5,021 nucleotides of DNA from Treponema sp. (GTDB taxonomy: Bacteria; Spirochaetota; Spirochaetia; Treponematales; Breznakiellaceae). The notes under the pieces were generated by a model. The model saw only the letters and a list, made by a program, of their open reading frames with translations, ran no database searches and had not been told where the DNA came from. The stretch covers positions 1 to 5,021 of the forward strand of contig JAISPH010000122.1 of assembly GCA_031275035.1 (NCBI GenBank), in the 5' to 3' direction. Position 1 is the first letter of the stretch. The number at the start of each line of letters is the position of its first letter. The position numbers and the translations under genes are program-made. Of the stretch, positions 1-5,000 are shown in pieces.

Positions 1-338
1 CCGTCTCTATCGCAAAGACCGTGCCGCCTATGGTTTCATTGATATACCCGGCGACAAGTTCCATGTTGGGATGACGATGCTTGCCTGTGAAGCGGCGTCT
101 ATGTTCGGGTCTATAAGGCTTCGGTCAACGACACGGCTTGTTGAAAAATAGGCAATGAGGATATTACCCGCATCGCCGTTTTGTGTCTCTCCGGCGTTAT
201 TGTTAGCAACAACAGCACCGGTTGAATTCCCGCTTGTTGCGGGCGAGGGTTTTTCCCCGAATTACTGGTATTACAGCCTGCTGTTGCGAAGATCAACATT
301 ACCGTTAGGCCCAAATTTAAAAATCTTTTTTCTGACAT
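1..338 (-). pseudogene. Flavodoxin-like lipoprotein, frameshifted and cut by the window edge
   Basis: The ATG at 338-336 follows a strong ribosome site. The first frame gives a lipoprotein signal peptide (MSEKRFLNLG, hydrophobic stretch, then ATAGC with Cys22 as the probable lipidated residue). Near the G/A/C homopolymers at 247-258 the sensible reading moves by one base into a Ser/Thr/Asn/Gly-rich linker, then GNILIAYFSTSRVVD, which is a flavodoxin first beta strand plus phosphate-loop region, then IDPNIDAASQASIVI. Near 60-72 it moves again, into NMELVAGYINETIGGTVFAI, the helix and second strand of the flavodoxin fold. Read straight through, the first frame stops at 111. Both shifts fit loss of one base. 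Flavodoxins are FMN electron carriers; a lipidated form would sit outside the inner membrane. About 110 residues are visible of roughly 160-200 expected. The family call is firm for the core; whether the gene is dead or mis-sequenced is not decided here. Confidence 0.75.
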
Positions 339-701
339 ATAATCTCCTTCTCAAACATGATTTCCTTACGGGAAAGGCTGCCGCCGTTGGGCACCGGTTT
401 TTGCTGTCCCCCTCGCCCTCCGTCCTCATCGGAATAAAGACCTTTGTGGCAATGACAAATTTTTCATGGGGTAGTTCCTTGACGGCCTCTCTCAGGTATT
501 TCTCGCTTGTACCGCAGGAATAGCAATTTGCCGTGTCAAAAAAGTTGATGCCCAAATCATACGCGCCGAAGATCGCCTCTTTGCTTTCCTCTTTTCCGGT
601 AACCCAGCTATGAAAGCCGGTTTTTACATCTCCAAAACCATACACCCCGGGCAGATTCCGGATACATCCAATCCCGAATTGCCAAGTTTTACATACTGCA
701 T
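317..701 (-). pseudogene. Aldo/keto reductase N-terminal remnant, two frameshifts and truncated
   Basis: The start is the ATG at 701-699, behind AGGAGGGG. The first frame reads MQYVKLGNSGLDVS and then a CPGCM segment, typical of the aldo/keto reductase N-terminus, but stops at 624. A one-base shift near 637-641 (ATGG where ATGGG would restore the frame) continues with GFGDVKTGFHSWV, DLGINFFDTANCYSCGTSEK and KFVIATKVFIPM. A second one-base shift near 389-396 continues with PNGGSLSRKEIMFE. In the restored numbering, catalytic Asp56, Tyr61 and Lys87 of the family's D-Y-K-H tetrad are present. The His and the rest of the roughly 330-residue TIM barrel are missing. Recognisable homology ends at 350; the last frame runs on to a stop at 317-319, inside the flavodoxin gene. 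The family reduces carbonyls with NADPH in the cytoplasm, but this copy cannot make a working enzyme. Confidence 0.85.
343..350 (-). promoter_or_regulatory. Ribosome binding site of the flavodoxin-like lipoprotein
   Basis: On the minus strand GAAGGAGA lies 4 nt before the ATG at 338. It fixes the start of the lipoprotein. It also sits immediately after the point where aldo/keto reductase homology ends. Confidence 0.8.
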
Positions 702-1022: not shown

Positions 1023-1595
1023 ATGCGTTTTAGTATGCTTTTTGTTATAGTTACTTTTTGTTTCATTTCTTGTCATTCAAATCCTGAAAACATTGATGGA
1101 TTAATAGATTATTCGGATATAAGCCTGTCAAAAACGAAAATGTACAATATAAACCTTGATATTTATAATAAAGACATAGTATCGCTAAAAAAGGGCGTAG
1201 TTAATGAGATTGTTAAGAGCGATGGTATAATAAATAATGATGTTATAGAGAACAGAAACAGGAATAGGATTATGATATATATTCCAAAACAGAACATTGC
1301 AAATTTTATTGAAAATATTAAATCCTACGGAATAATTGTAAATGAAGCCGTTGATTATGTGGATATAAATAGAGAAATGGGTATTAATGATATTGAAATG
1401 AGGATTGAGAATGCAGAAAACATGCTCGAAAAATTTGATAAGCTATTGATAGACGCTGATAATATAGCTGATAAAATAGCGCTTGAAAAAGAAATAAATA
1501 CTGTACGGAATGAAATAGAAATGTTAAAGTTAAGGACAGAAGAAATGGAAACCAGGGTTGAGAATGTTACAATGACAATTTTAATGTACAAATAA
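1023..1595 (+). CDS. DUF4349-like lipoprotein, AT-rich
   Basis: This 190-residue protein begins MRFSMLFVIVTFCFISC, a short lipoprotein signal peptide with Cys17 as the probable lipidated residue; the FISC lipobox is of the relaxed spirochaete kind. Residues about 40-110 form an alpha/beta region containing RIMIYIPKQNIANFIENI, matching the 'P…f…l' part of DUF4349. Residues 111-125 (DYVDINREMGINDIE) match the 'DVT..y.DlE' region. Residues about 125-180 are a predicted coiled coil, and the end, NVTMTILMYK, matches the family's final strand. Many DUF4349 proteins continue into a C-terminal membrane helix; this one stops at the strand and is anchored at its N-terminus instead. The function of DUF4349 is not established. 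Base composition is about 30% G+C by eye and rich in ATA, AAT and GAT codons, very unlike the two genes after it, which suggests separate acquisition. The start at 1023 has a modest GAGGG site; the ATG at 1035 is an alternative. Confidence 0.75.
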   Translation: MRFSMLFVIVTFCFISCHSNPENIDGLIDYSDISLSKTKMYNINLDIYNKDIVSLKKGVVNEIVKSDGIINNDVIENRNRNRIMIYIPKQNIANFIENIKSYGIIVNEAVDYVDINREMGINDIEMRIENAENMLEKFDKLLIDADNIADKIALEKEINTVRNEIEMLKLRTEEMETRVENVTMTILMYK

Positions 1596-1598
1596 ACC

Positions 1599-2195
1599 AT
1601 GAAACTGCAAAGAATCGGGCTGGCGCTCCTGGGAGGTCTTGCGGCTCTGACCCTTTTTGCCTGTTCGACCACGGAGACCGGGCTTGCAGGAGCCGGGACT
1701 CCGGGAGCCGCCGGGGATATGCCGGATACCGCTCCGGGTTCGGGAAGCTCCGCCGGGAAAGCGGGAAAGGCCGGGGAACCGGCGGACGTGGAAAGTCCCG
1801 CGGCCGCTTCCCTGGCGGAAGCCCTCTATCAGTCATACGGTGAATTGTCAAAGGATATCCCTGGCCGTGCTTCCATCGCCGTGATCAGTATTGCCGCCGC
1901 CGACCCGGTGGAGGGGGAATTTGCCGTGGAGGAACTAACCCTCTTGCTGGTGAATTCGAGAAAGTACAGCATCGTAGACCGGCGGAACCTCGATATTATC
2001 CGGGCGGAACAGGACTTTCAGCTTTCCGGGGAGGTGGATGACGATACCGCCGTTTCCATCGGCCACCTTATCGGTGCAACGATGGTGATTACCGGAAGCA
2101 TAAGCCCCTACAACGCGATACAGTACCTGCGCCTTAAAGTTCTGGATGTGGAGACCGGTGAAATCCGGGCCATGGCTTCCCGGCGTTTTAATTAA
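1599..2195 (+). CDS. CsgG/FlgO-like lipoprotein
   Basis: This 198-residue protein starts MKLQRIGLALLGGLAALTLF followed by AC, a classical lipoprotein signal with Cys22. Residues 23-68 are a Gly/Ala/Ser/Pro linker. Residues about 70-195 form a compact domain: a first strand ASIAVISIAA, a helix and strand around SRKYSIVDRRNLDIIRAEQD, the motif LSGEVDDDTAVSIGHLIGA, then MVITGSIS and VLDVETGEIR. This order, 'vvdR.nLd.i..E…lsG.vdd.ta..iG..lGA…itG', is typical of the CsgG / FlgO / LpoB-like lipoproteins of the periplasm and outer membrane. It lacks the length of a pore-forming CsgG, so an accessory or scaffold role is more likely than secretion. It starts 3 nt after the previous stop with no Shine-Dalgarno, so translation is probably coupled. 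Its stop overlaps the ribosome site of the next gene. The same domain recurs at the end of that gene. Composition is GC-rich, unlike the gene before it. Confidence 0.8.
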   Translation: MKLQRIGLALLGGLAALTLFACSTTETGLAGAGTPGAAGDMPDTAPGSGSSAGKAGKAGEPADVESPAAASLAEALYQSYGELSKDIPGRASIAVISIAAADPVEGEFAVEELTLLLVNSRKYSIVDRRNLDIIRAEQDFQLSGEVDDDTAVSIGHLIGATMVITGSISPYNAIQYLRLKVLDVETGEIRAMASRRFN

Positions 2196-2205: not shown

Positions 2206-4647
2206 ATGCTTGAAAAAAAGCCGTTGACTTGCCCGTGGGCCCTGCTTGCGGGGGCGCTTTTTGTGGGTGTGGTCTTCTCCGCCGCCGGTGGAGGGGCGCA
2301 GCAGAGCGGCGGTTCGGCCACCAGGGGGCGTTACCTTGCGGGGCGGGGGATCATCGTGCCCCCTGAGGAGGTGTATACCGACTCCTATATCGCCTCTATC
2401 GACTACAAGTACCCCCAGCCGGAGGCGGATCTGGGAGTCTACCTATACAACAGTTCCGGCCAGATGAACCGCCAGGGCCAGGAGGGGATCCTCCACATCG
2501 GCCTTCAGGGAAAACGCCTGCCCTTCGAGGGCCTTCCCCCCATGAACCTTGCCTTAGTGATCGATACTTCCGACTCCATGAACGAGGAGGACAAAATATC
2601 CTGGGTCAAGGAGTCCATGGCTGTTTTTATGAACAAGATCCGGAATGTGGATTCCCTGGCCCTGGTGAGTTTTAATGATACCGTTCAGGTGCTTTTTGAG
2701 TCCACCCGGATGGATAGTCCCGAAAAGCGGCGGCGTTTTCTTGATGCGGTGAACGCCCTCAAGCCCGAGGGCGGGACGGATCTTGAGGCGGGCCTTAAGG
2801 CGGGGTATGAACAGGTCCTGGCCAATTACCGGGAAGCCTCGGTGAACCGGGTTCTTTTCTTTTCCGATGGTACGGAATTTTCAAGCCGCCTTGCCAGGGC
2901 GGGGGCCCAGTCCGGGGATGTCCGGGTTTCCCTGCTCTGGAACAACCGGAACGATCTAGACATCCACGTGATAAGCCCCTGGGGGGAGGAGATCTTCTAT
3001 GGTCATTCCAAGGATGCCGCCGGGGGATTTCTTGACGTGGATATGAACGTGAGGGGCGAAACCACCAAACCGGTGGAAAATGTTTTTTGGGCTCAAGGCA
3101 AGGCCCTTCAGGGCCGGTACCGGGTTTTTGTCCAAAACTACGACTACCATGAGAGGAGACGGGAACCTACCGCCTTTCAAGTGGAGATAAAAAACGGTAA
3201 TGAATACAGCCGTTTTGAGGGAACTGTTTCCGGCAAGGGCCAGGACAGCAATACCGATGTCTGTACCTTTGAGTACAAGGGCGTTTCGGCGCTTAAACAG
3301 GAAAAGGCCCTGATCTATCAACTGGCGGAAAGCTACCGGCAGATGGGGATATCTATTTCTACCCTGGGTGTGGGTGTGGGCTTTGATCTGGAACTGATGC
3401 GGACCCTTGCAGAGGAAGGGGGCGGCAGTTCCCGCTTTATCAGCGACCGGGAGGAGATGCGGAAGACCTTCGATACCGAATTTGAGCGGATGGCGGTGGT
3501 CCTTGCCAGGGAAGTAACGATGGAACTGGAATTTCTGCCCGGGGTCTCGATCATCGAGACCTGGGGCTACCAGCACCGGGTAGAGGGGACCCGGATTTCC
3601 TACCGGCTCCCTGCCCTGCATCTGGGGGATTATGAAACCCTGCTGGTCCGCTACCGGCTGCCGGCCCAGGGGCCGGGGGATACAAGGCGGCTTGCCCGGT
3701 TCCGGCTTAACGCCCTGGATATTCAGGGGCGGGCCCTGCCGCCGGTTGAAAAGGATGTGAACATTGCGCTTTCAGATACCCCGGCGGACGGTATATCCAA
3801 CGGGATGGTCCTCTATTCGGGGACTATGATGCGTTTTGCCGAGACCCTCAAAGAAATCGGCGGCTTCTACTATACCGGCCAGGATGACCTGAACGCCCTT
3901 TCCCAGTTGGAACAGGAGGGCGGCGCCGGAGATCGCCGCCGGAGGGAGGAACTAAGGGGAGCCTTCCGGGACCACCTGGAAAAGGCCCTGGGGCAAACCT
4001 GGGCCTTCCGGGAGGAAATGGAGAATGCAAAACTCAGGCTGGATGACAGGGAAGCTTTTACCCAGGAGCTTGAAATCCTTGGCCGTTATGAGGATATCCT
4101 GTCGAGGGAACTGGTTGAAAACGGCGGAACCCTTGCGGAGGGCGCCGGTGGCGGAGCAGGGGTTTCAAACGGCGCGGGCGGGGGAGCGGCGGCTCCGGCG
4201 GTGATTTCCCCGGAGCTGAATGTCCTCCGAAACCGGGTGGAAGGGCTCTTTAAGGAGATAAGCCTATCCTTCCCCGAGGGAGAGCGCTCCGTGGCGGCCC
4301 TTGCCCCCTTTGCCATTCGAGACGGGGGAGAACCGCCGCTCCTCTCCTACCTGAACGAGAGCGCCCTGACGGTCCTGGCAGGGGACTCCCGGCTGACCCT
4401 GGTGGAGCGGAGCCGCCTGGACGCGGTGCGGATGGAACAGAGCCTCGCCACTACGGGGATGCTGGACGCCGACACCGCCATAGGGGTAGGGAAGCTGCTG
4501 GGAGCCCGGTACATGATAACCGGCCAGGTAATTCCCATGACCAGCCAGGTGATTGTTTTTGGCAGGGTGATCAACGTAGAAACCGGAGAGATTCTCAGCG
4601 CCGCCCAAATCTATCTGGACCGGAAAACGGTGGGGGAACTGTTGTAG
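2206..4647 (+). CDS. Secreted VWA protein with an inserted DUF2135-like domain and C-terminal CsgG/FlgO-like domain
   Basis: This is an 813-residue exported protein. Residues 1 to about 27 are a signal peptide (hydrophobic ALLAGALFVGVVF, then SAA) without a lipobox. Residues 55-112 are a beta-rich lead-in. The VWA domain begins at 114 with NLALVIDTSDSM. All MIDAS metal ligands are present: Asp120, Ser122, Ser124, Thr191 (GGTDLEAGL) and Asp221 (LFFSDGTEF). The next VWA strand, ISISTLGVGVGFDLELMRTL, appears only at 382. Between them, about 238-358 resemble the YfaP/DUF2135 beta domain (LLWNNRNDLDIHVISPWGEE, IFYGHSKDAAGGFLDVD, GRYRVFVQNYD). Residues 436-525 are a beta sandwich like that after VWA in YfbK-type proteins. 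Residues 540-640 are helical and charged, followed by a Gly/Ala linker at 641-667. Residues 672-800 form a CsgG/FlgO-like domain (LTLVERSRLDAVRMEQ, DADTAIGVGKLLGA, YMITG, VETGEIL). VWA domains usually bind protein ligands through a divalent metal; ligand and role here are unknown. It is the last gene of the operon. Confidence 0.88.
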   Translation: MLEKKPLTCPWALLAGALFVGVVFSAAGGGAQQSGGSATRGRYLAGRGIIVPPEEVYTDSYIASIDYKYPQPEADLGVYLYNSSGQMNRQGQEGILHIGLQGKRLPFEGLPPMNLALVIDTSDSMNEEDKISWVKESMAVFMNKIRNVDSLALVSFNDTVQVLFESTRMDSPEKRRRFLDAVNALKPEGGTDLEAGLKAGYEQVLANYREASVNRVLFFSDGTEFSSRLARAGAQSGDVRVSLLWNNRNDLDIHVISPWGEEIFYGHSKDAAGGFLDVDMNVRGETTKPVENVFWAQGKALQGRYRVFVQNYDYHERRREPTAFQVEIKNGNEYSRFEGTVSGKGQDSNTDVCTFEYKGVSALKQEKALIYQLAESYRQMGISISTLGVGVGFDLELMRTLAEEGGGSSRFISDREEMRKTFDTEFERMAVVLAREVTMELEFLPGVSIIETWGYQHRVEGTRISYRLPALHLGDYETLLVRYRLPAQGPGDTRRLARFRLNALDIQGRALPPVEKDVNIALSDTPADGISNGMVLYSGTMMRFAETLKEIGGFYYTGQDDLNALSQLEQEGGAGDRRRREELRGAFRDHLEKALGQTWAFREEMENAKLRLDDREAFTQELEILGRYEDILSRELVENGGTLAEGAGGGAGVSNGAGGGAAAPAVISPELNVLRNRVEGLFKEISLSFPEGERSVAALAPFAIRDGGEPPLLSYLNESALTVLAGDSRLTLVERSRLDAVRMEQSLATTGMLDADTAIGVGKLLGARYMITGQVIPMTSQVIVFGRVINVETGEILSAAQIYLDRKTVGELL
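3543..3561. repeat. 19-nt interrupted palindrome inside the VWA gene
   Basis: GGTCTCGAT, one C, then ATCGAGACC: nine-base perfect arms. It encodes part of the VSIIET segment at residues 447-452. It may be chance within coding sequence. Confidence 0.6.
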
Positions 4648-4945: not shown

Positions 4946-5000
4946 CGGAGTAAAAGCCATAGGGGGGCCCCTTTGGGGGGCACCTATGGCTTTTACTCCG
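4946..5000. repeat. Long inverted repeat with 18-bp perfect arms
   Basis: The arm at 4946-4963 (CGGAGTAAAAGCCATAGG) is the exact reverse complement of 4983-5000. The 19-nt centre contains CCCC, TTT and a G-run that can form an inner stem. There is no flanking T-tract on either side, so it resembles a repetitive palindromic or MITE-like element or a structured RNA more than a terminator. Confidence 0.75.

Follow-up and report, generated by a model that had tools for sequence, protein, structure and literature searches.

How a von Willebrand factor A (VWA) domain can hold a complete second domain between two of its strands, and what that domain might do there, is the question raised by a gene on a 5,021-nucleotide stretch of a Treponema sp. 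contig (JAISPH010000122.1, assembly GCA_031275035.1), referred to as a whole as the window. The gene (2206..4647, + strand) encodes 813 residues followed by a stop codon when read from ATG 2206, within an open frame listed at 833 residues. This ATG is probably the start, in preference to the upstream ATG 2146, because the ribosome-binding site AAGGAGG precedes it and because the closest homologue among those listed (P0003, 85% identical, source label Treponema sp. TIM-1) has 814 residues. In the 813-residue numbering, VIDTSDSM lies at 118, LFFSDGTEF at 217-225, NDLDIHVI at 249, YGHSKD at 265, RYRVFV at 304 and ISISTLGVGVG at 382. An earlier sequence-only reading had put about 155 residues between the strand carrying the Asp of the metal-ion-dependent adhesion site (MIDAS) and the next VWA strand; the motifs are where it placed them, and the gap, 226-381, is 156 residues long. 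We aligned the window protein with 96 homologues (45-86% identical, chosen from the best 120 of 465), and every one of the 97 rows holds 150-158 residues at this gap, which is therefore not a local error.

The Pfam VWA models end at the start of the insert, with VWA covered over positions 1-115 of 174 and VWA_3 over 2-117 of 155. The first VWA part (residues 109-223, 2530..2874) comprises strands b1-b4 as defined by Pfam, AlphaFold2 (AF2) and conservation, and carries all MIDAS residues, namely D120, S122 and S124 of the DxSxS motif, T191 and D221. A linker follows (224-235, 2875..2910), predicted at low confidence by AF2 (predicted local distance difference test score <50 over 224-234), and then the insert itself, a beta-sandwich of about 120 residues (236-357, 2911..3276) delimited by AF2, kinship and conservation. 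The insert begins just past D221, the last MIDAS Asp, in the loop that follows b4. One residue after its strand 350-357, the second VWA part (358-431, 3277..3498) resumes with helix 359-379, b5 (383-389) and b6 (409-412), as seen by AF2 and structural alignment. AF2 thus predicts a single six-strand alpha/beta VWA sheet formed by both flanks, with b5 and b6 C-terminal to a separate beta-sandwich, and the CLCA1 VWA aligns structurally onto 111..412 over 155 of its 157 residues.

Relatives lacking the insert were found by searching with residues 356-640, which returned proteins of about 665 residues having VWA and CsgG-like domains. Here the alignment shows the two VWA halves joined directly, as in ...FLTDGVGES-GILDMAETYKEMGINVSTIGVG. 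Across 105 hand-chosen rows, the interval 223-382 spans 152-162 residues in the 71 rows with the insert and 19-29 in the 34 without. The alternative of no nesting, in which there would be a pair of independent VWA-like folds or the VWA would be finished before residue 238, draws on the Pfam VWA_2 model (107 positions), which is matched almost entirely (2-106) ahead of the insert; VWA_2 is, however, a short model in itself, and the position of b5 and b6, the CLCA1 alignment and the direct joining of the halves in insert-free relatives all speak against this alternative, which we consider very improbable. Prediction, single-VWA structural alignments and insert-free relatives therefore agree with the earlier claim of a VWA fold interrupted by a beta domain.

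The YfaP/DUF2135 character ascribed to the inserted block is likewise upheld, by an hhalign probability of 97.7% over 86 columns (the other profile being three sequences) and by tblastn, which matches an E. coli record with the annotation yfaP at 36% identity across 61% of the query (E 4e-4). The Pfam check proposed alongside it gave a different outcome: with DUF2135 (PF09906, cut-off 22 bits) the window domain is not listed at E<=10, and 4 of the 14 members of the insert profile A2 reach E<=1 (best 7.2e-4). By homology, the insert belongs to the YfaP/DUF2135 superfamily, though outside Pfam's own model. This suggests that the 48-position Pfam model spans no more than a portion of a larger sandwich domain, present in many bacteria and phages and often inside proteins labelled hypothetical. 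All 14 A2 members match the phage family phrog_1735, whose function is unknown. Taken together, nesting and the homology of the insert to YfaP/DUF2135 are, on sequence and prediction, nearly certain.

Two other families were considered and rejected. The proprotein convertase P-domain (PF01483) scores the window domain at no more than 16.3 bits, under its 21-bit cut-off; it matches 5 of the 14 A2 members (best E 0.011), more than DUF2135 does but with weaker E-values. TerD (PF02342) is not listed by Pfam, and its hhalign probability is 0.7%, so that sequence lends it no support. Likeness of fold is a separate matter: the best six VIA-align matches to the insert are 3ibz TerD (8.9), 2qng SAV2460 (8.4), 2qz7 TerD homologue (8.3), 9a6r GLPD-SCP2 model (8.0), 7jtk radial spoke (7.3) and, with the same 7.3, 2kxt TerD, so that the modelled fold may be called TerD-like, the match being marginal. 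Foldseek returned nothing for the insert at E<=0.001. No solved structure was related to it by sequence at E<=10 with a single-domain query, and a profile query gave weak matches, the best (E 0.064) being a subtilisin-like protease. In the literature library searched, no paper contained both 'DUF2135' and 'von Willebrand'; for 'YfaP' or 'DUF2135', seven papers matched, all via 'yfap' and none with the term DUF2135, and in a passage of one of them yfaP is just a strain marker.

To place the insert in the history of the protein, trees were built with the insert columns excluded throughout. On a quick tree of the 105 rows, presence and absence of the insert require 3 changes. When a second quick tree was rooted on E. 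coli YfbK, 69 insert-bearers and 4 insert-free rows stood apart from the other 29 insert-free rows. An ancestral state without the insert is likely but not firm, because three rows (P0127, P0206 and P0069) were dropped from the rooted tree, backbone forks are weak (supports 9, 58, 88 and 75) and the YfbK branch is very long (5.3). On a careful tree of 46 rows, a hand-picked and unrooted subset that leaves out P0210, the insert-free P0201 and P0207 fall into one cluster (100/99) that also holds five insert-bearers, and a topology in which one split separates the two states is rejected (p-AU 8e-6). The state of the insert has thus changed at least twice, on sequence and prediction, although such counts do not separate gain from loss. 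Our best reading is that an ancestor with an ordinary VWA gained a YfaP-type insert once and that some lines later lost it; two separate gains are the alternative. P0201 retains SDGTEF and a short AAASGE stretch that looks like a scar. On one contig (L074, reverse strand, frame from 751), the first ~42 insert positions, about one third, are followed in frame by the VWA helix; the frame stops early, on unrelated sequence, which may reflect either a copy in decay or an error of assembly. Since copies occur naturally with the insert, without it and, on this contig, with part of it, the family provides ready pairs for its effect on a VWA.

The inserted domain is found well beyond this gene. It is held by 24 of 194 genomes from the order of a close relative, 12 of which have it nested, by profile, with the two halves of the VWA on either side, at 13 loci (L005, L012-L017, L019-L023, L035). 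In another eight (L025-L032) the frames that carry it are 921-1,076 residues long, and in the two long frames read further (L041 and L043) it lies late in the protein. By Pfam, L041 has VIT at 45-154, VWA at 272-361 and DUF2135 at 926-973, that is, at the far C-terminus and apart from the VWA, whereas in the window protein it lies inside. The remaining four genomes hold it in a second family (G044) or in other frames (G173, G144 and G004). Across the phylum, 42 of 344 genomes match, and 6 of the 30 loci listed are nested (L005, L017, L021, L023, L065 and L074, the last with a partial insert). Searching with the insert domain by tblastn matched 23 plasmid and 413 phage records; among six of these proteins that were read, the four from plasmids (L008-L011) have no Pfam match at E<=0.1, and the two from phages (L039 and L040) are, by eye, without this VWA. 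The proteins at L039 3723-5753, L040 2690-4765, L008 2714-4756 and L009 2726-4756 are large and labelled hypothetical, like phrog_1735, and in them the domain is preceded by a helix (IDxEIKxRVExAGGQY...) common to the second family.

This second family, A8, comprises 24 spirochaetal rows of ~460-520 residues carrying the same domain at ~60% identity (among them P0132, P0134, P0135, P0139, P0150 and P0168); L018 and L066-L070 also belong here. By eye, its members resemble a divergent VWA (ALDVTRSRGDD, EGGGGTGQES, FFFVGDEGF) in which the domain comes later. Pfam found no VWA in the seven members scanned, and hhalign gave no match of A8 to VWA, a test whose controls show that it can miss true pairs: the VWA profile of the insert-free rows scored 99.8% against E. 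coli YfbK and 0.2% against the VWA of a VIT protein. That A8 is a divergent VWA carrying the same module further along is accordingly offered as a lead by eye.

Insertion at this VWA loop is itself already known; the novelty lies in which module is inserted and in how it has spread and been lost. A literature search on nested VWA inserts listed pilus adhesins and integrins, among others. ARM2 of Mfa5, RrgA and GBS104 is a long insertion between VWA strand four and the next helix, beside the MIDAS, and additional loops form a lid above the MIDAS cleft in all three (PMC7835359). In Mfa5, ARM2 is a small domain of 98 residues in which three very short strands are embedded in long loops, and it holds a metal modelled as calcium; in RrgA and GBS104 it has 123 residues and is metal-free (PMC7835359). 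The arms of RrgA and of PilB are also treated, in PMC7893114 and PMC8179133 respectively. The site is alike in the window protein, between b4 and the next helix, but ARM2 of Mfa5 consists mostly of loops whereas the insert is a complete YfaP/DUF2135-type sandwich, and the ARM2 adhesins are pilus or fimbrial tip proteins binding host or matrix whereas the window protein is YfbK/ArnB-like with a CsgG-like end. In those adhesins the VWA sits within an Ig-like sandwich; in the AF2 model, strands at 76-102 precede the VWA and 432-530 follow it, and these could pack together.

We then asked how strongly the insert is constrained. Over the 97 rows, the mean share of the commonest residue is 0.70 in the insert and 0.71 and 0.76 in the two VWA parts, and invariant columns are similarly frequent for length; constraint on the insert is thus roughly equal to that on the VWA around it. 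Seven of its polar residues (D250, D252, D277, D279, N281, E291 and N292) are unchanged in 97/97 rows and complete in 67/71 of the wider set, whilst the MIDAS is complete in 78/97 rows (S or T accepted at 122, 124 and 191). The loops around a VWA metal site are where partners bind. As a whole, the best explanation, about as probable as not, is that VWA and insert would together form a metal-dependent partner-binding surface, the insert covering or extending the MIDAS. Its conserved Asp/Asn/Glu cluster may bind either a ligand or a divalent metal, most likely calcium, and we see an even chance of such binding; calcium is suggested solely because the fold is TerD-like. The insert would be positioned over the MIDAS face, and is expected to cover or extend it, by analogy with ARM2 in Mfa5; that it truly gates the MIDAS is doubtful. 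The seven residues were picked after their invariance had been seen, so that the comparison with the MIDAS flatters the insert.

Other roles fit some of the same observations. The insert could be a spacer or assembly module that keeps the protein at a distance or makes contacts in a complex, the CsgG-like neighbour being one conceivable partner, and leaves the metal-site function untouched. At least two changes of its state have occurred in proteins whose remainder stays alike, the domain is also carried by otherwise-built proteins, including those of phages, and the MIDAS is incomplete in 15/71 insert-bearers; polar residues invariant in 97/97 rows nevertheless exceed the needs of a spacer, though they may be structural, and we regard this role as a tentative possibility. 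The MIDAS is complete in 56/71 insert-bearers against 31/34 insert-free rows, and hence incomplete more often with the insert (15/71) than without it (3/34), a difference free of the above selection flaw but counted over related rows. Because of this difference, the insert rather than the MIDAS might be the working surface, as a mobile TerD-like calcium-binding module put repeatedly into VWA-type folds and at different loops, A8 looking by eye like a divergent VWA with the module further along; we judge this unlikely. Finally, the insert might sense calcium and set the state of the VWA via the adjoining helix 359-379, which would be regulation instead of ligand binding. The TerD-like fold and the single residue between strand 350-357 and the helix, the other linker being of low confidence in AF2, are consistent with this, but the fold match is marginal, and we regard the proposal as quite improbable.

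Returning to the partner-binding surface, the rest of the protein bears on its location. The region ahead of the VWA (36-108, 2311..2529) was delimited by alignment and is YfbK-like by eye, with no Pfam family listed for it. Behind the VWA lie a second beta-sandwich (432-530, 3499..3795), like that of the ArnB/Sec23-24 core, a helical region defined by AF2 and structural alignments (531-640, 3796..4125) and a C-terminal CsgG/LpoB-like domain (670-805, 4213..4620; PF03783, E 3.4e-8). The order VWA, beta-sandwich, helical domain is shared with the YfbK/ArnB/Sec23-24 core (PMC12852372), and the kinship is backed by the hhalign match of 99.8% between the VWA of the insert-free rows and E. coli YfbK. 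E. coli YfbK, on the other hand, has no insert at that VWA loop and no CsgG in its Pfam list, and it matches vWF_A (PF12450) and YfbK_C (PF12034), neither of which is listed for the window protein at E<=1. We conclude that the window protein is probably an exported, YfbK/ArnB-like protein of spirochaetes.

Directly upstream, 10 bases from the VWA gene, a second CsgG/LpoB-like gene (1599..2195, + strand; PF03783, 8.1e-10) encodes a domain 34% identical to the C-terminal one. By eye, its product has a Cys behind an N-terminal hydrophobic stretch and is likely a lipoprotein. A CsgG-like homologue directly precedes the VWA gene at 3 of 17 loci searched (L001, L002 and L012), most of which include little upstream sequence; L003, where 5 kb is covered on that side, has none. 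The CsgG-like C-terminus and the lipoprotein-like CsgG neighbour suggest a periplasmic or outer-membrane complex, and would place the VWA-insert unit there. PADLOC gave no match for four proteins. Elsewhere in the window, a 124-residue frame at 271-645 (- strand) matches an aldo/keto reductase family over positions 3-79 of 291 alone and is possibly a broken or cut gene, whilst 1023-1595 (+ strand) encodes a DUF4349 protein whose start, judged by eye, is likely that of a lipoprotein and whose gene has a visibly higher A+T content than the genes that follow. Downstream of the VWA gene, at ~4947-4999, a long inverted repeat is visible by eye (GGAGTAAAAGCCATAGG ... CCTATGGCTTTTACTCC).
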